DNA of 64,000 nucleotides, from NCBI RefSeq assembly GCF_009913235.1, contig NZ_CP047897.1:124001-188000 (forward strand), given 5' to 3'. The notes under the pieces were generated by a model, which was not told where the DNA came from, searched no databases, and was given only the letters and a program-made list of their open reading frames with translations. Source of the stretch: Nibribacter ruber (lineage in GTDB: Bacteria > Bacteroidota > Bacteroidia > Cytophagales > Hymenobacteraceae). Of the stretch, positions 1-43,680 are shown one piece after another; the stretch's first letter is position 1; each line of letters starts with the position of its first letter. The translations under genes were made by a program, and so were the position numbers.

Positions 1-57
1 GAAAGTGAAACCGGCTAGCAGAACCGCTACAATTGCTATGATGAGAGGTATAGTCAT
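1..57 (-). CDS. N-terminus of an unidentified membrane or exported protein, cut by the window edge
   Basis: An ATG at 57 on the minus strand opens 19 codons that run off the left edge. They read MTIPLIIAIVAVLLAGFTF, a single hydrophobic stretch that would be a membrane anchor or signal sequence. Nothing further can be said about the product. A bidirectional-looking hairpin at 87-126 separates it from the cytoskeletal operon upstream, so it is probably not the fifth gene of that operon, although read-through is possible. Only the start of the gene is visible and no clear ribosome binding site precedes it. Confidence 0.45.
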   Translation of the reverse strand, partial: MTIPLIIAIVAVLLAGFTF

Positions 58-130: not shown

Positions 131-3100
131 TTATACAATGGCACCTACCTGCTGGTGGTACAGTTCTTTAGACAACAGGTACAGTGACTGCTTCAATGGC
201 ATAAAGAACATGGTCTCTGGGATGAGCTCACGGTCAGAAAGTCCGCGCAAAGTCTCTTCCAAGACCATGGTGTAGCTGTCCTGGATGTTGTTGCGCATGA
301 AGTTGAGTACCCAGTGCGGGTCTACCTCTACGCCCATTGAGCGCATCAATGGAGCCACATCGGCGTCATCCAATAAGAGCGTCAAGCAGTTCATGACGTT
401 GTCCAGTACCTCGGTTCTGAGGGTAGACGAAATCTGGCTCTTGTTCACCGACTTCATGGCATCTTCTCCGGCCACGGCACCGGTTGGGCGCATGATTGGA
501 ATGTCCGTCAAGTCAGAAAGGTTGGCGCCTTCCAGAGCCATGGCACCGCCGTTGGCCGTCACCTGCTTAGGATTGTCTACCAACACCAGCTTGAAGTTGC
601 TAGGCGCTTCTTGCCCGGTCACTTTCTGGAAGATGGTTTTGGCATAGCGCTCCACGTTGGAGAAGTTGGTGCCCGCGGCCAAAAGCTTGATGTACAAACT
701 TCCCTGGCCCGAGAAGCAGATGTAACGCGGAACCTGCGTGCCTAACAATTGGGTAAGCTGTGCCAGGTGGTACATCAAAGACCCGAAGTGCAGGTAGAAC
801 ATCAACCGTAGCTGGCGCGCCTGCAACAACTGCGAGCTGTAGTTCAACTCACGGTCATAGCTAAACAGCAAACTGGTAATATCAGCGGACCCGAAATCTG
901 GGTTGTCCAGCGCCGTCTCCAGGAACTTCTTGTATTCCTTACCTTCCTCAGACAACGGAATTTGCATGATATGCGACACGCCGTACTGCAACAAACCGTT
1001 GTCCTTGCTGGTCTTCACCGAGGCAAAACCATCGCCCCACAGGTCATTCCCGGCAAATCGGAAGGACGCACTGTGCGAAGGCTTGCGGTTGGTAAACAAC
1101 AATACGTCGGTGGTACCACCGCCTATGTCTACGTTAATCAGGTTTTCATCCTGGCTAGGCACTACCACTCCGGTTCTGGATAGGAAGTAGAACGGAGCCA
1201 CAGACTCTGTGATGCAGGCCGTGTTTCTTCCGTTTTTGAAGACGGTTTGGTATACACCGTCCCATACGTTCTGGAACATGTTGCGCGAGTAGTCATCAAA
1301 GCTCAATGGCGCAAACCACACCACTTTGGTGTTGGCCACGTTGCCATGGTTTAAGACCACTTTGTTCTTGATGAGCAACATAATCTCAGTGAAGAAGGCT
1401 TCAATCCGGCGCTTGCCAGTGTTGGATAGCGTCTCACTCCACTTCAGGTCGGTATGGTAGCTCTGCTTGTACTGGTCCTGGTGCGTACCTTCGGTGTTGA
1501 TGGAGAACCCAATGTTAATGTTCCCGAACAGACTCGGAATCTGGTTCTCAAAGTCAATAGACTCACAGGTAGCCGTTCTGGTAGGGAAGGAGTAAAGCGA
1601 CCCACCCGCCCCGATAATCAACGGAATAAACTCACGCTTCAGCAAGGTCTCTACCGCAAACAGACGCCCGAAACCACGCTTATGGAACCGCTGGTAATCT
1701 GTCAAAGATGCATCTTCTGATGGCTTGTTCAGCATCACCAACTGCAAGTCATTGGCCGTGATGGAGAACTCTTTCGGGGCTTGGTTAGAACCGGCCGTGT
1801 AGGCAATATGCGTGTTAGACGTCCCGAAGTCAATGGCGAAGGTGAAGCTCTGAATACCCTGGTGCATCTGCTGGAACTTAGGCACAATCAGCGCCTTGCC
1901 GGTCACGTCTACACCTTGGTGCGTCAGCTCGGCGTAGTCAAAGTGCGTGCCTCTGATTTCATAGTAAGTACTGCCCGCACTGCTGTTGCTTTTCTTGGTG
2001 CGTCTTTGGGACGTAGCAGACATGAAGCCTCCACCCGCGTCCAGTTGGCGTCCGCCAACATAGAAGTTCAAGGTGTGGTTTCTGTTCACCAACAGCGAGT
2101 CAATATCCTCATCAACCAGCATCACTTTGTAGAAGTCATTGTAGGTAGGCGCGTCCACAAACTTGTAGAACGGGAACACCCCAATGCCCACGCGTGATTT
2201 CAAGATGTGGCCTTTTTCTGGGATTATCTGGCCGTGTGCATCTCTGGAATTAAGCGGATTGTCATAGTAACTGCGTTCATATACTACTGGGCCATGCTCG
2301 GTAGGGATGGACAAGGTCACTCGCACGTGGTTCACGTCTACATAGAAGGTAAGGTGGTTGGCCAAATCCTCAGGCGTGAAGTAGTCAAAGTACGTGCTGG
2401 TGATAGGCAACAGGTAGTTAAATACTTTCTCCGTTACACCCGGTTGGTACAAGACGGTTCCGCTGTAAAAACGGTCTGTGTTCACCTCATAAGGCACCTG
2501 TACAATGGTCTCTTGCAAGAGGTCATTGATGGTGAGGTACGGGTAGTTAAACCCAACGCCCGGCAAAGAACGAGCAGGAATTTCTTTTTCGTCTGAGTAG
2601 CCTACCTGCGTATTGGTTGGCCAGGCCAGGTTGTTGACGTACTTCACGTGCGGGGCCAAACGCAAATCTGGCTTGAGCACGATAGGACGGTCTCCCTGGA
2701 ACAGATTGTTGGTTGGGCGCAGGAACAAATCACTGCTGGTCACGGCGGTTTGGTCTTTCTTCACCAGGAAGTTCAAGTGACCCACGTGCACCGGGTTCTG
2801 CTGTAAATCCACCAACGGCAGGTAGTCATTGATGACCGCATTCTGGCCCATCACCCCAGACATAGAAATGCTCTTCAAAACCGCTTCGTCCAAGGCATTG
2901 TACACCGCCGGGAAAGCCTGAATATACGCCGGATTAGACACGAACAGCTTGTGCACGTACTCTTTAAAATCACGCTCGCGGTCATTTAGTGACACGAAGT
3001 TGTTGTCAAAGTACACGCCCACGTTTTGCGCTCTATTGATAGAAAGTGGTTGCACATTTGGAGACACAAACAGGAAGGTGAACGGTGAAGTACCACCCAA

Positions 3101-3586
3101 CAACTGCATGTGCTTGTTGCCACGTCCATCAGTAGATTCCAGATAGAACAGGAACAAATCATCCACGCCTCTGAACTTGGAGTCGTTCATGAACAAGTCC
3201 AGCGTTCTGCCCAAAAGTTGGGTGTTGGGGTTGGATTGCATGGCGTGCAACTGCTGTTGCTTGTTCCAGCGTCTTATGACAATCTTGTTACCGCCCTGGG
3301 CGTAGCTTTGGTGGTTGTAGAGCAGTTCCCACAAGTCCCAGAAGTGGGTGACAAACTTATGGTAGATGCTGTTGGGGGTGCTAGAGACACCTTGCTTGAC
3401 AAAGTCAAAGGCGGTCTCAAACAAGTGCATGCGCGCAAACGGCGTGGGGATGGAGGCCGTGATTTTCTGGGCTCTACCGCCGGCACCGTCGGTGATGTCC
3501 TTAATCTCCGTGCTGGTAATCTGGCTAGTTTTTGCCCAACCTTCTACGTTAGAACCGGTCTTATGAAGTCGAAGTACTTTCGGCAT
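131..3586 (-). CDS. Large protein with a C-terminal actin/Hsp70-like ATPase domain
   Basis: 1151 residues, no signal peptide or obvious membrane segment, so probably cytoplasmic. The C-terminal half carries the phosphate and adenosine signatures of the actin/Hsp70 ATPase fold: FAIDFGTSNT near residues 583-592 (phosphate 1), NVDIGGGTTDVLL near 817-828 (phosphate 2) and a glycine-rich FSGQGS near 957 (adenosine motif). The first 580 or so residues match no family I recognise. It is the last gene of a four-gene operon with a tubulin-like protein, a small membrane protein and a vWA-like lipoprotein, so it may be a nucleotide-dependent scaffold or polymer acting with the tubulin-like partner at the membrane (inference). 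A distant relation to SrfB-type Hsp70-like proteins is possible. It is separated from the preceding gene by about 280 bp of repeat-rich DNA. Confidence 0.8.
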   Translation of the reverse strand: MPKVLRLHKTGSNVEGWAKTSQITSTEIKDITDGAGGRAQKITASIPTPFARMHLFETAFDFVKQGVSSTPNSIYHKFVTHFWDLWELLYNHQSYAQGGNKIVIRRWNKQQQLHAMQSNPNTQLLGRTLDLFMNDSKFRGVDDLFLFYLESTDGRGNKHMQLLGGTSPFTFLFVSPNVQPLSINRAQNVGVYFDNNFVSLNDRERDFKEYVHKLFVSNPAYIQAFPAVYNALDEAVLKSISMSGVMGQNAVINDYLPLVDLQQNPVHVGHLNFLVKKDQTAVTSSDLFLRPTNNLFQGDRPIVLKPDLRLAPHVKYVNNLAWPTNTQVGYSDEKEIPARSLPGVGFNYPYLTINDLLQETIVQVPYEVNTDRFYSGTVLYQPGVTEKVFNYLLPITSTYFDYFTPEDLANHLTFYVDVNHVRVTLSIPTEHGPVVYERSYYDNPLNSRDAHGQIIPEKGHILKSRVGIGVFPFYKFVDAPTYNDFYKVMLVDEDIDSLLVNRNHTLNFYVGGRQLDAGGGFMSATSQRRTKKSNSSAGSTYYEIRGTHFDYAELTHQGVDVTGKALIVPKFQQMHQGIQSFTFAIDFGTSNTHIAYTAGSNQAPKEFSITANDLQLVMLNKPSEDASLTDYQRFHKRGFGRLFAVETLLKREFIPLIIGAGGSLYSFPTRTATCESIDFENQIPSLFGNINIGFSINTEGTHQDQYKQSYHTDLKWSETLSNTGKRRIEAFFTEIMLLIKNKVVLNHGNVANTKVVWFAPLSFDDYSRNMFQNVWDGVYQTVFKNGRNTACITESVAPFYFLSRTGVVVPSQDENLINVDIGGGTTDVLLFTNRKPSHSASFRFAGNDLWGDGFASVKTSKDNGLLQYGVSHIMQIPLSEEGKEYKKFLETALDNPDFGSADITSLLFSYDRELNYSSQLLQARQLRLMFYLHFGSLMYHLAQLTQLLGTQVPRYICFSGQGSLYIKLLAAGTNFSNVERYAKTIFQKVTGQEAPSNFKLVLVDNPKQVTANGGAMALEGANLSDLTDIPIMRPTGAVAGEDAMKSVNKSQISSTLRTEVLDNVMNCLTLLLDDADVAPLMRSMGVEVDPHWVLNFMRNNIQDSYTMVLEETLRGLSDRELIPETMFFMPLKQSLYLLSKELYHQQVGAIV

Positions 3587-3607
3587 AAATCAATCTGTTT
3601 TTAAGGT

Positions 3608-3633
3608 GTTTTCAGAAAAAGAGGCCAAAAACG
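3608..3633. repeat. Half copy of the dispersed palindromic repeat
   Basis: Only the right arm (AGGCCAAAAACG) and part of the loop of the family core are present, just upstream of the actin-like gene. The left arm is lost. Confidence 0.55.
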
Positions 3634-3702
3634 AATTTTGGGGGATGACCTCCTTTTCTTTCCTTTACTTATTTCTTCCTTCAGGAAGTGTTCTTTCTTT
3701 TT

Positions 3703-3850
3703 CGTCCCCCTTTGAAGGGGGTAGGGGGATGATTATTGCAAGGAGATTCTCCCCTTGAGTGGAGCGTAGAGGGGTGTTTACATTGCAAACTTTCTCTCCA
3801 ATGATTACACCCCTAAAGTCCCCCTCAAGGGGACAATCTCTCCCCAAAAA
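3703..3850. repeat. Cluster of G/C-run hairpins between two operon genes
   Basis: Several short hairpins are packed together: CCCCCTTTGAAGGGGG at 3706-3721, an AGGGGTGT/ACACCCCT pair near 3771-3814, and TCCCCCTCAAGGGGA at 3819-3833. Similar CCCCCTTTGAAGGGGG elements are scattered through intergenic DNA of many Bacteroidota. An apparent 60-codon reading frame here is a by-product of the repeat and has no protein-like composition. Confidence 0.6.
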
Positions 3851-3865
3851 GGGAAACTGGATGGC

Positions 3866-5317
3866 TTAAGAATACTTAAGCTTTTCTTCTACCAAATTAT
3901 TGGTGGCAATCTCAAAGGCTTTGATGGTAGCTTTGAAGGCCTCGCGGTCTGAGATGGATTCTGAGGCACGGTTCAACTCTTTCACAAAAGCGCCTTGTGA
4001 GATGCCTTTGTTCAGGAAACCAGTCTCTACTTGCTTGTCAGAGACCATGCGGTTGAAGTCGGTCTCATGTAGGTGGAAGGCAGAGAAGGTGCGCTCCATC
4101 CGGCTGAGTTCTTTCAACCAAGCCTCGTAACCAATGTCTGGGCTGTTCAGGAACTTGTTCAGCTCTTTGAAGATAGGCTCATTGCGCATGGCACTGCTCA
4201 AGTCCACACCTTTGGCGTAGGCCGCTTGTGCGTCATCCGGCACATGGTTGGCGTAGTAGCGCGCGAAGTAATGGAAGCGAATCAATTGCTTGGCAATACG
4301 GTCTCTGGTCTCGGTGTCCAGGTGCGAGAACTGCACATTGTCCACGTCTTCGCGCAAGCCAAACTCATGGTAATGCGAGTTGCCGGTCAACTCATTGTCT
4401 GAGTAGTCCATAAAGTCAATGATGGACAACGCGCTCAAGAGTTCTACCAAGTGGGCGTCGTTTTTCTGACTTGCCCGGCCTGGGTTGTTCTCTAACGGAC
4501 GGTCTGGCGTGTCACCCATATAATAGGTAGCGTTCACCCCAGTCAGGTGGTTCTGGTAGTAAGACAGTGCATCCTTCGCCTTAGTGGTGAAGGTGTTGGA
4601 GTCAATGAAGTCGGCGTCTACGCCAGGGGCTGGTTGCTCCAAAGTAAAGTACGGCAATACTACCATGGCACCCGTCAACGCCGAGTTCAAGCTAGACGCG
4701 TTGGGTAAAGTTGAGTGCTGGTCTTTGAAGTTCTTCAGCAACAGCGGGAAGCCGGCCGCGCCGGTACCGCCAAAGATGGAGCTCACAAAGAAGATGCGGT
4801 CACCGGCCTGAAAGTTAGACGCAAAGAAGCGCATCTCAGGAGATTCAATAATCTCGTTCAAGACCACACTGCCCACGTTCGGACTTCCTCTAAAGCCCAC
4901 ATCAAGACTGTTATTCAAGTTTTCTGGCGTGAACAATAAGTCTACTAGCGCCTGGGAGTCAATGTCCAATTGGTTGTAGCCCACGTGGTCTTTGAACGGC
5001 TTGTTGATGCCCCCAAAGTCATACACAAACGAGTCTCTTACTTTAGAGGAGCCGTCACCGGAGATGCTGGAAAGCGTGCTGATGTTGGTATGGAAAAAAC
5101 CTTCTTCGCGCTTGCCCAATTGGTCATGCAGGTGCTTGTAGGTTTTAAGCAGTTCTACTGTGCGGTTCATGTCCCCGTTCTGCGTGTCTGGGTCAATGAT
5201 GATGGGCACAATCTTGTCACAGTTCTTGATTTTGACACCGGCGGCCATGAGCATCACCAACGAGCGAATCACTCGGGAGCCAGTACCGCCAATTCCGAAT
5301 ACAAAAAGTTTTGCCAT
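3866..5317 (-). CDS. Tubulin/FtsZ-like GTPase-fold protein
   Basis: 483 residues. It opens with a Rossmann-type FGIGGTGSR (residues 7-15) and has the tubulin signature loop FGGTGAAGF at 182-190, preceded by the hydrophobic strand RIFFVSS. This matches the prokaryotic tubulin-like family (Pfam PF13809, 'Tubulin_2') better than cell-division FtsZ, which is shorter and has a different N-terminus. The family is expected to bind GTP and possibly polymerise. No signal peptide; cytoplasmic. The start ATG lies 2 bp after the stop of the membrane protein upstream, so translation is probably coupled. Known FtsZ-like families outside division have been predicted to work in membrane remodelling with vWA proteins, and the neighbouring lipoprotein fits that picture. 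GTP binding is inferred from the motif only. Confidence 0.82.
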   Translation of the reverse strand: MAKLFVFGIGGTGSRVIRSLVMLMAAGVKIKNCDKIVPIIIDPDTQNGDMNRTVELLKTYKHLHDQLGKREEGFFHTNISTLSSISGDGSSKVRDSFVYDFGGINKPFKDHVGYNQLDIDSQALVDLLFTPENLNNSLDVGFRGSPNVGSVVLNEIIESPEMRFFASNFQAGDRIFFVSSIFGGTGAAGFPLLLKNFKDQHSTLPNASSLNSALTGAMVVLPYFTLEQPAPGVDADFIDSNTFTTKAKDALSYYQNHLTGVNATYYMGDTPDRPLENNPGRASQKNDAHLVELLSALSIIDFMDYSDNELTGNSHYHEFGLREDVDNVQFSHLDTETRDRIAKQLIRFHYFARYYANHVPDDAQAAYAKGVDLSSAMRNEPIFKELNKFLNSPDIGYEAWLKELSRMERTFSAFHLHETDFNRMVSDKQVETGFLNKGISQGAFVKELNRASESISDREAFKATIKAFEIATNNLVEEKLKYS

Positions 5318-5319
5318 AG

Positions 5320-5733
5320 TTATCTAGTGTGGGGCCATTTCATGGGAGTAGTCCAAGCCTGGACACTTCCTTTTTTAAGCAATAGGGAGAAAATGAAAAA
5401 CAGGATTAAGCTGAGCACCGCGTTTACAAAGGCAAACGTGTAGGTGTAAGAATGAGTATCAATGCCAGCACCACTTACTTGAGAAATAGGAATGATGAAC
5501 GCGATGATGGCATTGATGGCCAGAAAAATGTACCAGTGTCTTGGCTTGTAGAAACCAGTGCTCAAGGCGCGGTTCAAGACATAATAATAGAGCACTACCA
5601 TGACCAGCGTGATGATGAACAGCATGAGACCGGTGTTGGGGAACACCACCTCGCGGTAATCATTGGTGAAACTGGCTGGCATGGGCCGGCCCAAGAAAAG
5701 CTCATACAGCCCGGAGAAGAAATTCTGAATCAT
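5320..5733 (-). CDS. Small three-helix membrane protein of the cytoskeletal operon
   Basis: 137 residues with three predicted membrane segments at about 34-53, 67-85 and 98-121, short loops and a basic C-terminal tail (KKGSVQAW...). No family recognised. The gene is tightly packed: 2 bp after the lipoprotein gene and 2 bp before the tubulin-like gene. That spacing implies one transcript and a joint function, possibly as the inner-membrane anchor or receptor for the tubulin-like or actin-like protein (inference). Confidence 0.7.
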   Translation of the reverse strand: MIQNFFSGLYELFLGRPMPASFTNDYREVVFPNTGLMLFIITLVMVVLYYYVLNRALSTGFYKPRHWYIFLAINAIIAFIIPISQVSGAGIDTHSYTYTFAFVNAVLSLILFFIFSLLLKKGSVQAWTTPMKWPHTR

Positions 5734-5735
5734 CC

Positions 5736-7124
5736 TTAGTTGGTTTCTTTGTTAAACTTCATTGTTGCACTAAATACAAACTCACTTTTATCTCTATAGA
5801 GCGCCTGCACGCCGTCTATAATCTTATTGAACTGGTACGTTTTTCTGGGCGCCGATGCCGGATTGTTGTCATTGCCTGTAGACCACTGGCTAATCCAGGT
5901 GGGTACCGCTTGTGGTAAATTTAAAGTAATGGAACCGGTCTTGGCCGTCAATTGAGGCACCTTCACCCGCACAAAGTGGGTGAACTGAGACACGCCCGGT
6001 GCTGACTTGGTATCTTCATTGGCTACAAGGATGGTGCCAATAGACGCTTTGCCACCGGTTATGGCCAGCTTGAGGTTCTGCTTTAAGTAGTCTACAGCCT
6101 GCATGGTGGCCGGTAAACTACTCAAATCCAGCCCAATGGTGAACTCAACCGGCTCCTTATTTTCAGGTGCTAAATTTATGGTAGTACATGTTTCAGCGGT
6201 TCTGCTGGTGCAGTACACCACGCCCATGGGCTTGAAGGCATTTGCTTTTAAGACGGCTGAATACGGCACGCTGGCATACGAAAACCCGAAATACGCTTGC
6301 TGGGCCGGCAGGTTGCGCAATACTTTGTTGGTGAACGTCTGCACATCTGCTTGCTTGCCCACAATCCAGATGTAGAACGGAATTTCCTGACCCGATAGTG
6401 TCTGCTTCACTGCCGGCTTTTTAACTGCTGGGTAATAGTTACCATAGAACGGCGAAGCTTCCGCCAATACAGCTACTACCAGGTTTTGATGTTCGGCCTG
6501 TTTTAGACTGCTTCTAATGTCGGCGTCCAAAGACAGAAACTGGCCCGGGTTGTTGGGGTCTGGGCCATGGATGAAGTCAGAAACTACTACGCTCAAGGCT
6601 CCGCGCTTGGTGGAGTTGGTCAAGGCGGCCTGCAACATGTCCGGCAATGGAGTGCCCAATACATTGTCTTTGATACCGCTAACAATGGTCAGTTTTAAGG
6701 TGTTGTAAGAAACGCTGTCCAGCACGGGTGCGCCCTGGGCGTTTTGCTTGGCCAGGTAAAATCGCTTATCATCTACGTGCACGCCGTCCTGTACTTCAGA
6801 AATCAATTTGGTCAACCGGTTCTGGAAGGTAGTGGGCTCTTTGTCGGCGGCGGGAGGGGGCATAAAGCCTTTCATGCCGTTGGACACCTCCAGGTAAATG
6901 TCCACGTCTACTTTGGCGTTGGCCACCGGAGTAGGCGTTGGGGTTGTAGCGGTAGATTCTTTTGAATCACGGGTTGGGGCCTTTTCTGTAGTGGTGGTCT
7001 CCGTTTCTTCGCGGTCACTCTTTTTGGTAAAGCATCCGGAGATCATCAGCGCCAGCCCAAGGCAGAGCAGGGGAAACTTAGTGCCCAGAAGTGGTGCTTT
7101 ATAGTATTTGCTGTTCATTTTCAT
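5736..7124 (-). CDS. Lipoprotein with a degenerate vWA-like domain
   Basis: 462 residues. An N-terminal hydrophobic segment ends in the lipobox ISGC with the lipidated Cys at 31, so it is exported and membrane-anchored. A Thr/Glu/Pro-rich linker spans about 38-70. From residue 71 it resembles a von Willebrand A fold: a strand DIYLEVSNGMKGF (75-87) where DxSxS is expected, a GTPLPDML helix start (157-164) and SVVVSDF (178-184). The first MIDAS aspartate is replaced by Glu79 and the second serine by glycine, so metal binding may be altered or lost. The C-terminal half (200-462) looks beta-rich and unassigned. It is the first gene of the four-gene operon and probably its envelope-facing component. 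The vWA assignment is by pattern only. Confidence 0.7.
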   Translation of the reverse strand: MKMNSKYYKAPLLGTKFPLLCLGLALMISGCFTKKSDREETETTTTEKAPTRDSKESTATTPTPTPVANAKVDVDIYLEVSNGMKGFMPPPAADKEPTTFQNRLTKLISEVQDGVHVDDKRFYLAKQNAQGAPVLDSVSYNTLKLTIVSGIKDNVLGTPLPDMLQAALTNSTKRGALSVVVSDFIHGPDPNNPGQFLSLDADIRSSLKQAEHQNLVVAVLAEASPFYGNYYPAVKKPAVKQTLSGQEIPFYIWIVGKQADVQTFTNKVLRNLPAQQAYFGFSYASVPYSAVLKANAFKPMGVVYCTSRTAETCTTINLAPENKEPVEFTIGLDLSSLPATMQAVDYLKQNLKLAITGGKASIGTILVANEDTKSAPGVSQFTHFVRVKVPQLTAKTGSITLNLPQAVPTWISQWSTGNDNNPASAPRKTYQFNKIIDGVQALYRDKSEFVFSATMKFNKETN

Positions 7125-14083: not shown

Positions 14084-15088
14084 CTAGATTCTGGTGCTGT
14101 TGTCATTGTCCAGACCACCGTCTCTGTTACGGTTAGGGCTTAGTCTGTCGCGGTCCGCGTCCAGGCGGTCACGATCTGAGGTGTCATCCAATCTGTCCAC
14201 GTCTACCTCAGTAGAGCGCACGGTTTCTTTGATGACTTCATCACGTTCTTCCACGTCTTTTTCCAGGGACACTTCCTCCACCACTCGGGCTTCTTTGTTG
14301 ACTACGGGCACCTCGGCGTGCTCGGTCAGTTCAATTTCTCCTTCTTTAAACGAGTTGAGGTCGGCATCAGTGGCGGGGCGGTTCACAGGATTGCGTTCTA
14401 CCACCACGCGTTCTTCGCGCAGGCGCACGTGCTCCTCAACGGGTTGCTCTACAATTCTGCTGCTCACATGCACACCGCCTTTTTCTACCTCGCGCTTTTC
14501 AATTTCCAGGTTCTCCTCAATGATGGGAATGGTCTTGTCGCCTTCTGCGCTAGGCGTACGGCGCTGTCTGAAAGCCTGGTCAGAATACAAGTCATTGTTG
14601 TAGTAGTCACGGTCACGGTCGTGGTCATGGTCTCCAGTGACGGCATCTGCCACGTTGTGGGCGGCACCTGTAACAGCGGCAGCGGCACCTGCGGCGGCGG
14701 CGCCAAGGCTGCCAAACACGTTTCTAACCGAGTCTTCCACCTCGCGGCCAAAGTGTCCCTTCTCATACGTAGGCAAGGCTCTGAACTGCTCCACAGTCAC
14801 AGATGGAAGAATCACGTCATCGTCAGAATCATGCAACTGCGCCATGCCAATGGGCACTAACACGTCACGCGGTTCCAGGTCCAGTACGCTTCCTTCCAGG
14901 TCCACTACCATGTAGCGCACTTTGCGGGAGTTAGTGTCAAAAATGAGTTCTTCCACTTCCCCAATGGTTTGGCCTTGCTGGTTCTTAACGGTCCATCCTT
15001 TGATGTTGGGCTGTCCGTCTACAATTTCATAGTCACTGCCGCCTAACTCTTGTAGGTGGCTTTGTGGGTTAAAATAATCTCTTTCCAT
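14084..15088 (-). CDS. PRC-barrel plus DUF2382 (YsnF-type) stress protein
   Basis: 334 residues from the ATG at 15088 (METRDY-like start MERDYFNPQ, preferred over an upstream start nine codons earlier). A PRC-barrel domain occupies about 20-110 (GEVEELIFD, VRYMVVDLEG, VLVPIG). A small Ala/Gly helix follows, then DUF2382 (about 165-285) with the hallmark IPIIEENLEIEKREVEKGG and VPVVNKEARVVEEVSL. The tail is an unusual Asp/Arg-rich run (DRDRLDADRDRL). DUF2382 proteins are general-stress related in other bacteria; biochemical activity is unknown. It is the last of four DUF2382 genes in the region and closely resembles the protein encoded at 15913-16821. Confidence 0.85.
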   Translation of the reverse strand: MERDYFNPQSHLQELGGSDYEIVDGQPNIKGWTVKNQQGQTIGEVEELIFDTNSRKVRYMVVDLEGSVLDLEPRDVLVPIGMAQLHDSDDDVILPSVTVEQFRALPTYEKGHFGREVEDSVRNVFGSLGAAAAGAAAAVTGAAHNVADAVTGDHDHDRDRDYYNNDLYSDQAFRQRRTPSAEGDKTIPIIEENLEIEKREVEKGGVHVSSRIVEQPVEEHVRLREERVVVERNPVNRPATDADLNSFKEGEIELTEHAEVPVVNKEARVVEEVSLEKDVEERDEVIKETVRSTEVDVDRLDDTSDRDRLDADRDRLSPNRNRDGGLDNDNSTRI

Positions 15089-15162
15089 AGTAGTATAGGT
15101 TGAAGTACTGCGCACAGTACCGGTTTGAATTGATTGAAAAATGATAATGCTTGGGCAAGCCG

Positions 15163-15795
15163 CTACGACTTACGTACCACAATTTGCACCCGACGATTCT
15201 GCTGGCGTCCTTCGGCGGTAGCGTTGGTGGCTACCGGGTTAGCCTCACCCACGGGGTGCAAAGATACATGGTCTTTGGAAACGTTGCCGTTGTCCACCAA
15301 CCAGGACTGCACGGCCTGGGTGCGCTCTTCGGCTAGTTCTTTGTTGTAACCGGCGCTTCCCTGGGCATCTGTGTAGCCATAGACACGCACATTGCCACCG
15401 CTAAAGCGTTTATTGATGGAAGCTGCCACCTGTTTCAGTTTATCAGCGGCCTGCGGTTGAATAGTGGCCTTGTCATTGTCAAAAAGAATGGTCTCATCCA
15501 TGGTATACACGGCATAGTCATCATTGCCACGCACCTCAATGTCCTTGTCTGTGATTTCATCATAGGCGGCCACAGGGGCGTTCAGATCAAGACTGTTCCA
15601 GTCATCATCAGTGTCCATATCTGAGTCTGTGGTGGTGGCAGTGGTAGACTCTGTGGTGGTAGTGGTGGTTTCTACTTCATCCTCACGGTCACAGCCGCGC
15701 AGCAAGAAGAACAATAAGGCAATTCCTAGTAAGGCAAGTAGCAGCCAAAGCCACCAGGGCTTACTGCTTTTGGGTTGAACATCTAAATCAGCCAT
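15163..15795 (-). CDS. Membrane-anchored OmpA-family protein
   Basis: 210 residues. A short cytoplasmic start is followed by one membrane helix (about 14-32, PWWLWLLLALLGIALLFFLL), a Thr/Asp-rich linker and an OmpA-like peptidoglycan-binding domain (about 95-208, with VRVYGYTDAQG and AEERTQAVQSWL, ending NRRVQIVV). It probably links the envelope to the cell wall. It sits between two DUF2382 genes on the same strand, suggesting a shared envelope-stress role. The hairpin at 15861 separates it from the gene upstream. Confidence 0.85.
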   Translation of the reverse strand: MADLDVQPKSSKPWWLWLLLALLGIALLFFLLRGCDREDEVETTTTTTESTTATTTDSDMDTDDDWNSLDLNAPVAAYDEITDKDIEVRGNDDYAVYTMDETILFDNDKATIQPQAADKLKQVAASINKRFSGGNVRVYGYTDAQGSAGYNKELAEERTQAVQSWLVDNGNVSKDHVSLHPVGEANPVATNATAEGRQQNRRVQIVVRKS

Positions 15796-15860
15796 AGTTT
15801 TATTTTGTTTGGGTTAGGTTGGGAATTCCTGCCAAAACCCGTCTGACAGGAGGGGATAAT

Positions 15861-15893
15861 AAAGGCGGCTACCGCTGGGCAGTAGCCGCCTTT
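15861..15893. terminator. Hairpin terminator
   Basis: AAAGGCGGCTAC and GTAGCCGCCTTT form a perfect 12-bp stem around a 9-base loop. It lies between the YflT/DUF2382 gene and the OmpA-like gene. Confidence 0.8.
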
Positions 15894-15912
15894 CATAATC
15901 TATTGTGGTAGG

Positions 15913-16821
15913 TTAGATTTTAGTGGAACGGTCATTGTCCAAACCGCCGGTTCTGTTGCGGTCAGCATCCAGACGATCATTGTTCAAACGGTCTTTGTCC
16001 AAGCGGTCCCGGTCAGTGGTGTTCAGTTTGTCCACGTCTACCTCAGTAGAACGCACGGTGTCTCTGATGACCTCGTCGCGTTCTTCTACCTCTTTGCCTA
16101 AGGAGACTTCCTCCACCACGCGGGCGTTTTTGTTCACTACCGGAACTTCTTCACGTTCGCGCATCTCAATGTCGCCTTCCTTAAAGGAGTTGAAGTCTGC
16201 CTCGGTGGCTGGGCGGTCTACTGCATGGCGTTCTACGCGCACGTGCTCAGAGCGCAGACGCAGGTTTTCCTCTACCGGACGCTCTACAATTCTACTGCGC
16301 AAGCGGGCTCCGCCGGTTTCTACTTCGCGTTTGCCAACTTCCAGGTTTTCTTCAATGATGGGAATGGACGTGTTGCCGGTACGGGCATTGTCTGTCCAAC
16401 CGCTTGACTTGAAGCCATACTCAGAGGCGCGCTGATCCATGTCCACTGATCCATACTGGTCCAGGATGCGGGCGGCGCTTTGTGCTTCCATGGGGTTCTG
16501 GGCATGCACGGTAACTACGCACTCACTGGTGCGGGCTACGCTAGAATATGCTCTGGCGGTGGTGTCATCATCTGAGAACAAGGACTTGAAGAAGCCAGAA
16601 ATGCCGTCATTGTCTGTGGCGTCATGGGCCAGAGACTCATTGCGGGTATCTCCTAAATGGGAGTTAGAGGGCCCGGTGGTGCCTCTGCTGGTGCCCGTGG
16701 CGCCTTGTGTGCCATTGGATACATCTATGCGGTCATTGGAAATGCCTGAAGATTTCAACTCTTGTACTGCTCTTTGTGCTTCTGATGAGCTATCGAATAC
16801 TCCTATTACTGTCTGTGCCAT
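15913..16821 (-). CDS. YflT/GsiB-like N-domain plus DUF2382 stress protein
   Basis: 302 residues. The N-terminus (MAQTVIGVFDSSSEAQRAV...) is the general stress protein 17M/YflT-like fold, with the second half of that domain near 85-125 (VVTVHAQNPMEAQSAARIL). DUF2382 spans about 150-265 (IPIIEENLEVGKREVETGG, VPVVNKNARVVEEVSL). The C-terminus is an Asp/Arg/Leu-rich repeat (DRLDKDRLNNDRLDADR). Domain and tail are strikingly close to those of the protein at 14084-15088, so one arose from the other by duplication or gene conversion. Likely role: stress-related cytoplasmic protein of unknown activity. Confidence 0.85.
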   Translation of the reverse strand: MAQTVIGVFDSSSEAQRAVQELKSSGISNDRIDVSNGTQGATGTSRGTTGPSNSHLGDTRNESLAHDATDNDGISGFFKSLFSDDDTTARAYSSVARTSECVVTVHAQNPMEAQSAARILDQYGSVDMDQRASEYGFKSSGWTDNARTGNTSIPIIEENLEVGKREVETGGARLRSRIVERPVEENLRLRSEHVRVERHAVDRPATEADFNSFKEGDIEMREREEVPVVNKNARVVEEVSLGKEVEERDEVIRDTVRSTEVDVDKLNTTDRDRLDKDRLNNDRLDADRNRTGGLDNDRSTKI

Positions 16822-39559: not shown

Positions 39560-39564
39560 TCTGG

Positions 39565-39636
39565 TAGTCCGTAGGGGAATCGAACCCCTGTTACCAGAAT
39601 GAAAATCTGGTGTCCTAACCCCTAGACGAACGGACC
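39565..39636 (-). tRNA. tRNA-Glu (anticodon UUC), copy 1
   Basis: A 72-nt cloverleaf on the minus strand: acceptor GGTCCGT with ACGGACT, anticodon stem CCAGA/TCTGG around loop TTTTCAT (anticodon TTC), and T-arm AGGGG/CCCCT with loop TTCGATT. No CCA is genuinely encoded; the bases after the discriminator happen to spell CCA but the second copy differs there. The same tRNA occurs at 43609. Confidence 0.95.
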
Positions 39637-43597: not shown

Positions 43598-43608
43598 TGA
43601 TTTTCAAG

Positions 43609-43680
43609 TAGTCCGTAGGGGAATCGAACCCCTGTTACCAGAATGAAAATCTGGTGTCCTAACCCCTAGACGAACGGACC
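43609..43680 (-). tRNA. tRNA-Glu (anticodon UUC), copy 2
   Basis: Identical in its 72 nt to the copy at 39565, with the same anticodon TTC in loop TTTTCAT. The bases after the discriminator read CTT, so no CCA is encoded and it must be added post-transcriptionally. Confidence 0.95.

Follow-up and report, generated by a model that had tools for sequence, protein, structure and literature searches.

According to the Zorya model, binding to peptidoglycan opens a channel and a turning tail recruits effectors (PMC11890865, available text). For operons that combine FtsZl1 (Tubulin_2) with vWA and OmpA proteins, a role in membrane remodelling was predicted in 2010, and their listed members include a Bacteroides and cyanobacteria; in the main text of that paper the terms 'MotA' and 'ExbB' are absent and actin is mentioned in general terms only (PMC2875224). 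In turn, a study of 2020 described conflict systems of the GAP1-N2 GTPase-centric type that contain tubulin or HSP70 (PMC7159879, available text). Here, we report a seven-gene operon, A-G, which resembles each of these systems in part. Its first four genes lie in a window of 64,000 nucleotides (the whole stretch of DNA analysed, bases 124001–188000 of the 4.35-Mb one-contig genome of Nibribacter ruber), and the closest named relatives within the genome collection are Rufibacter. Our preferred reading, with a probability of roughly 45%, is that A-G encode a seven-part envelope-spanning machine, in which an ion-driven, peptidoglycan-tethered motor would act through its tail on a cytoplasmic actin–tubulin assembly.

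The original prediction for this DNA had pointed to four same-strand genes, three of them 2 bp apart. The strand and the spacing hold: the four open reading frames (ORFs) are all on the minus strand in the order A-B-C-D, with 2 bp between A and B, 2 bp between B and C and 279 bp between C and D. The gene set was incomplete, as the operon is truncated by the window edge and genes E, F and G continue on the same strand (genome 124057–120294). Genes A-D thus open an operon of seven genes, whose features are as follows (window positions unless the genome is named):

Gene A, 5736..7124, minus strand: 462 amino acids (aa); lipoprotein with the lipobox ISGC at Cys31 and a weakly vWA-like region (LEVSNGM, GTPLPDMLQAAL, SVVVSDF), assigned from the ORF, the comparison of loci and a vWA profile comparison.
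Gene B, 5320..5733, minus strand: 137 aa; small membrane protein with ~3 transmembrane helices.
Gene C, 3866..5317, minus strand: 483 aa; GTPase-like protein of predicted tubulin/FtsZ fold with the loops GGTG (T1) and GGTGAAG (T4).
C-D gap, 3587..3865, minus strand: 279 bp, containing a GC-rich palindromic stretch.
Gene D, 131..3586, minus strand: 1151 aa; N-terminal ~575 residues, then a predicted actin/Hsp70-type ATPase region at ~578-1010.
Gene E, genome 124057-123008, minus strand: 349 aa; window positions 1..57 hold its first 57 bases only.
Gene F, genome 122717-120960, minus strand, wholly beyond the window: 585 aa; putative ExbB/ZorA-like protein.
Gene G, genome 120953-120294, minus strand, wholly beyond the window: 219 aa; ZorB-like protein.

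We found A-G complete and in unchanged order in all 29 related loci, which come from Rufibacter, Pontibacter, Sabulibacter, Botryobacter and Hymenobacter. For A-D, a co-occurrence above 90% had been put forward as support for a conserved neighbourhood, and the four genes stand together in every one of these loci. The flanks are not conserved, the commonest flanking gene being found in 7 of 30 loci (own locus included). Gene H (184 aa), located downstream of G, was dropped from the set because it has no homologue in the related loci (0/29). In a survey of 204 genomes of the family, C was detected in 176 and G in 174, and the two lists are identical except for two genomes (G397 and G413), which carry C without G and in which the C matches are weak (1.7e-40 and 2.1e-41). 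As judged from C and G across these genomes, a genome either carries the whole seven-gene set or lacks it entirely; C was matched in 120 of 120 genomes of one genus (g2) and in 25 of 50 genomes of another (g143). The genes are under strongly purifying selection in the one genome pair compared: against the closest genome (G307), the ratio of non-synonymous to synonymous substitution rates (dN/dS) is 0.009 for D, 0.015 for C, 0.022 for B, 0.024 for F, 0.028 for G, 0.049 for E and 0.092 for A, while FtsZ of the same pair, variable linker included, gives 0.052. Because the order is the same in all 29 loci and dN/dS stays between 0.009 and 0.092, the four-gene arrangement is not due to chance.

The tubulin fold proposed for 3866–5317 is borne out by structural comparison of C. 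Its AlphaFold2 (AF2) model, built from 24 sequences, has a mean predicted local distance difference test score (pLDDT) of 58.5 and a predicted template modelling score (pTM) of 0.68, with a C-terminus that is helical at low confidence. With this model, the top Foldseek matches are CetZ and FtsZ (probability 1.0, E 0.008; none at 0.001), unrelated Rossmann-type enzymes appearing at lower ranks, and VIA lists 50 rows, every one of them an FtsZ, a tubulin or a CetZ, with a top Z of 15.4 (193 aligned residues, root-mean-square deviation 3.9). C matches Pfam Tubulin (2.6e-5) and Tubulin_2 (8.1e-5), both under the curated cut-offs (for Tubulin_2, 22.5 bits vs. 27 in the window genome); among the 16 members of the C family, 14 match Tubulin and 11 Tubulin_2 at E<=0.01, the best Tubulin_2 value being 3.2e-9. 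GGTG is invariant in both loops in 16/16 members, at identities down to 23%, and in the copy of cyanobacterial plasmid L122 the first loop reads GGSG. The motif GGTGAAG, announced for residues 183-189 of one of the proteins, is present at exactly these residues of C; as a T4 loop it is one Gly short of the published GGGTG(S/T)G. A candidate for the T7 acid, D-Y-S-D (304-307), follows the presumed helix H7 and resembles NVDFADV, and it is variable among relatives. A single-sequence search of solved structures with C gave nothing significant. The tubulin assignment rests on fold and motifs because the hhalign alignment with FtsZ is confined to the T4 region (P 0.027). Taken together, these data support a tubulin/FtsZ fold for C. 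A canonical FtsZ is encoded elsewhere in the same genome; therefore, C is an additional protein.

As for D, the actin-type ATPase foreseen at 131–3586 finds support in conserved motifs and in profile matches. DFGTSNT (from residue 586), DIGGGTTD (from 820) and FSGQGS (from 958) represent, in the expected order, the motifs for phosphate-1, phosphate-2 and adenosine, and D586/G588, D820/G822/G823/T825/D827 and G960/G962 are invariant in 15/15 D members. Against solved structures, the D profile matches MreB at phosphate-2 (1.3e-5) and mitochondrial Hsp70 at phosphate-1 (8.6e-4), again in the correct order, and Pfam FtsA is matched by 8 of the 15 members at E<=0.1 (best 6.3e-5). A single-sequence search of solved structures with D retrieved nothing significant. 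The AF2 model of D, poor as it is, agrees with the assignment: the first three Foldseek matches are Hsp70, DnaK and actin, with immunoglobulin folds intermixed lower, and proteins of the ASKHA group (actin/Hsp70/sugar-kinase) make up 49 of the 50 VIA rows, covering model residues 573-1011 with a best Z of just 8.0. The sequence evidence supports the prediction of D as an actin/Hsp70-type ATPase.

The mechanism is constrained most by the ExbB/ZorA-like and ZorB-like genes beyond the window, which were out of sight of the original prediction. G matches ZorB1 of PADLOC (1.2e-10), and a search of solved structures with its family profile yields ZorB in two of them (8vvn_B, 8.2e-6, residues 5-206; 8qyd_F, 6.7e-4); ZorB was not recovered by phmmer with the G sequence alone, the family profile being needed. 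8VVN is the structure of type I ZorAB of Shewanella, in which Asp24 of ZorB is reported as critical (PMC11890865, available text). Asp15 of G, a transmembrane residue invariant in 16/16 G members, can be placed at this position from the offsets of the matched ranges, and it probably corresponds to it. Hydropathy of F indicates helices at 1-19, 208-226 and 249-267, followed by a tail of ~300 residues, and the match of F to ZorA3 of PADLOC (1e-4) falls mostly within this tail. When 11 F proteins were compared by hhalign with 16 ExbB/TolQ-type proteins, the score was 34.9 (P 0.0011), with GLLGTFSGVI aligned to GFLGTVIGMI, vs. 13.4–22.1 (P at least 0.032) for 18 off-target pairs run with the same script. 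Thr214 within GLLGT is invariant in 18/18 F members, one of which matches MotA_ExbB (2.6e-4); a distant F relative in locus L060 reaches 1.1e-4 with this model (22.3 bits vs. a cut-off of 22.9). At the sequence level, F and G resemble motors of the Zor/Exb kind.

The remaining products would link these parts to the envelope. A lipobox and a membrane protein had been predicted among the four genes, and both claims are supported, by ISGC at Cys31 of A and by the helices of B. The vWA-like nature ascribed to the lipoprotein fared less well. In its favour, the motifs ExSxG, GTPLPDML and VVSDF of A are laid out as in vWA domains, Ser81 and Asp183 are invariant in 20/20 sequences, and hhalign of A against 16 vWA proteins scored 33.6 (P 0.0016), above all 18 off-target pairs; the metal ion-dependent adhesion site (MIDAS) position reads ExSxG in the window copy, ExSxS in L042-L044 and DxSxS in L060. 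A has no Pfam vWA match, the vWA model was not triggered at A in its own genome, and no vWA structure was found with the A profile among solved structures. The resemblance of A to vWA proteins is thus weak. The product of gene E has a single membrane helix at its N-terminus, followed by a long linker rich in Pro and Gln; its C-terminal domain is common to its relatives, and we infer this domain to be cytoplasmic.

We propose that F and G would form a 5:2 complex in the inner membrane that works as a rotary motor of the ExbB/ZorA-ZorB type and is driven by ions, with Asp15 of G within the ion path and the periplasmic OmpA-like domain of G gripping peptidoglycan. The helical tail of F (~300 residues) would reach into the cytoplasm and, upon rotation, act on an assembly of C and the large D, whose state would be determined by the nucleotide cycles of both proteins. 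E, by its helix, flexible linker and presumably cytoplasmic C-terminal domain, and B may anchor the C-D assembly to the inner membrane, while A, on the periplasmic side, may sense or bind a partner. The job of such a machine would most likely be the detection of, and response to, mechanical or chemical envelope damage, i.e., upkeep over arms-race defence. The original prediction had envisaged a cytoskeletal envelope machine; its tubulin and actin parts are supported, and the machine itself we infer. The most specific part of the proposal, that a rotary motor powered by ions acts physically on actin–tubulin co-assembly, driving or gating it, and so connects ion flow at the membrane and peptidoglycan with a cytoskeleton of two components, is put forward tentatively, at odds somewhat short of even.

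Beyond the family, a profile search detected C in 13 of 395 genomes of the phylum, and all 13 neighbourhoods were inspected. D is located downstream of C in 12 of them and F-G are found in 7 (own locus, L040, L041, L061, L058, L060 and L059), four of which come from the window's family; in L043 the locus is interrupted by a contig end. In L059 (5249-8066) a shortened C is fused to F, and D and E are missing; the genome bin has 13% contamination, and the fusion is possibly a natural deletion or an assembly fault. F-G also stand beside C in the distant loci L058, L060, L117 and L118. Among loci taken from a viral-contig collection (L116-L118), the gene order is A-B-C-D-F-G in L117 and L118 and A-B-C-D-E in L116. 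Distant C-D relatives are accompanied by TerD in L046 (1986-5062; 1.4e-70) and by an OmpA-TM protein in L045 (7016-8455; 6e-17). A second locus in a Rufibacter-like genome, G302 (L083, 3664-12177), comprises a lipoprotein, a membrane protein, a tubulin-like protein, a D-like protein and HSP70 (Pfam 2.2e-77), with no match to F or G in that stretch. Distant C relatives occur in 6 of 72,556 plasmid records, three of which were inspected: in Prevotella sp. oral taxon 299 (L120, 8002-15630) we found A-B-C-D-E, unannotated in the plasmid table and with C at 37.7% identity, and the cyanobacterial plasmids L121 and L122 carry relatives of A, C and D labelled hypothetical or tubulin-like, A of L121 being on the opposite strand. 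No match was found among 50,697 phage records. For L043, L058 and L060 the matches are circular in part, since the models contain some of their proteins, while those of L083, L116-L118 and L120-L122 are independent of the models. A mobile-element reading was rejected in view of the missing phage matches, though distant relatives do occur in the six plasmid records.

Several observations weigh against the motor-driven machine. The model of D is poor (pLDDT 47, pTM 0.37). Pfam gave no motor match for F of the window genome, the MotA_ExbB model was not triggered at F in that genome, and a search of solved structures with the F profile retrieved no motor; the hhalign probability is low both for F vs. 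ExbB (20.6%) and for A vs. vWA (16.0%). The OmpA match of G (4.4e-4) is under the Pfam cut-off, and unrelated PADLOC matches reach a similar strength (LeoC with F, 3.3e-4; PtuA with G, 4.3e-4). Moreover, F-G are absent from the stretch inspected in 5 of the 13 loci, where other modules, TerD (L046) and the OmpA-TM protein (L045) among them, are found instead, and because of these loci the core can apparently dispense with the motor. An L,D-transpeptidase (L044, 12209-14112; 9.4e-22) or an aspartyl-protease lipoprotein (L042, 12896-13471; 3.4e-17) follows the core where F-G are missing, which suggests that the envelope modules beside it are exchangeable. Finally, the patchy presence beyond the family is also compatible with a defence system.

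The last point bears on the strongest of the rival explanations, a Zorya-like anti-phage system in which the ZorAB-like motor would sense puncture of the wall and its tail would recruit C and D as effectors, e.g., by forming filaments that bring the cell to a halt. The homology of G and F with ZorB and ZorA speaks for it, as do the 13 of 395 genomes of the phylum with C, the block missing from half of one genus (25 of 50 genomes), the C relatives in plasmid records, the HSP70 gene of one paralogous locus, and the fact that tubulin and HSP70 gene sets were earlier proposed as conflict systems (PMC7159879, available text). Yet, none of the seven products matches ZorC, ZorD or ZorE (PADLOC, E<=1), B-G have lower dN/dS than FtsZ in the one genome pair, a C match occurs in each of the 120 genomes of genus g2, which is unlike typical arms-race genes, and the phage records gave no match. 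Because dN/dS is low and the effectors are missing, we demoted the defence-first reading and regard it as rather unlikely.

Less probable still is a membrane-remodelling or vesicle system as predicted for tubulin-like/vWA/OmpA neighbourhoods such as the FtsZl1 operons (PMC2875224, available text), with F-G a mere peptidoglycan tether and no working motor; the OmpA-TM, L,D-transpeptidase or aspartyl-protease genes that replace F-G in other loci are in line with it, but the presumed ion-path residues are kept in every member (Asp15 of G, 16/16; Thr214 of F, 18/18). A signalling or chaperone-like platform, in which D would serve as an ATPase of the Hsp70 kind, C would be a switch operated by GTP and neither protein would form filaments, would agree with the matches of D to Hsp70 as well as MreB and with TerD or HSP70 in some distant loci, but is similarly improbable given that A-G show no J-domain or GrpE match in Pfam scans and that, according to the 2010 authors, every tubulin-superfamily protein characterised by then forms filaments (PMC2875224, available text).

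If the motor-driven machine of our preferred reading is true, it is kept in most members of one family and recurs across the phylum; should the coupling prove real, bacteria would provide a case of a rotary motor acting on a cytoskeleton. The Zorya precedent indicates that a stator-type motor is able to relay envelope signals inward. In the open-access literature searched, we found no established function for non-division tubulin-like proteins and no description of the seven-gene combination, in agreement with the earlier statement that no described function was known for the gene set; preprints and most subscription papers were outside this search. The operon thus combines known superfamilies in a partly predicted neighbourhood, for which a motor and an actin-like partner were not found described, and offers, in environmental bacteria that can be cultured, a definite set of genes with which to ask what non-division tubulins do.

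Further observations concern the DNA itself. The 15-mer CCCCTTGAGGGGGAC of the palindrome in the C-D gap has a single occurrence in the window with up to one mismatch allowed. A promoter scan of L003 1500-9700 gave 6 sites vs. a shuffle mean of 5.8, i.e., no excess; terminator-like sites in the same segment number 20 vs. 9.6. Elsewhere in the window, inspection of the ORF list by eye revealed, at 14084-16821, two proteins of 343 and 302 aa that resemble each other and share an acidic C-terminal region, flanking an OmpA-like protein (15163-15795). Two tRNA-Glu genes with an identical anticodon lie ~4 kb apart, at 39562-39636 and 43608-43680.

SrfB (Pfam PF07520) is a large actin-like protein. 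One of the 15 D members matches it at 0.074, which is not significant.

Compared with the GAP1-N2 systems, A-G share the occurrence of a tubulin with vWA, although A is only weakly vWA-like, the HSP70-type ATPase found in some of them and the association with the membrane. In contrast to A-G, the tubulin-bearing GAP1-N2 systems come from Firmicutes and Actinobacteria and are centred on TRAFAC GTPases with GAP1, and no rotary motor is described, 'MotA' and 'MotB' having 0 occurrences in the available text (PMC7159879). TRAFAC GTPases have no match in A-D (Pfam, NCBIfam, PADLOC) or E-G (Pfam, PADLOC).

Like the FtsZl1 operons, A-G combine a non-division tubulin-like protein with vWA-like and OmpA-like partners and are patchily distributed (PMC2875224, available text). 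FtsZl1 is described with a coiled coil of extended length and a C-terminal domain made of helices (PMC2875224, available text), whereas C is a protein of 483 aa, and neither a kinase nor a TRAFAC GTPase was seen in A-G. The operon could be among the unnamed gene families of the supplements of that paper.

In turn, F and G resemble the TolQR, ExbBD and MotAB stators in that an A5B2 architecture is expected from sequence and the GLLGT-type motif aligns with ExbB-type proteins. They differ by the long tail of F and by their tubulin-like and actin-like neighbours, and no flagellar, Tol or Ton genes were recognised among A-G.

Unlike Zorya, the operon has no ZorC, ZorD or ZorE match, its partners being a tubulin-like protein, an actin-like protein, a lipoprotein and two membrane proteins; it also has low dN/dS and is present in most genomes of the family. 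The likeness lies in the motor pair itself: F would be a three-helix ExbB/ZorA-like protein with a long cytoplasmic tail, F and G are adjacent, and G is homologous to ZorB over nearly its full length, the presumed critical Asp included (PMC11890865, available text).

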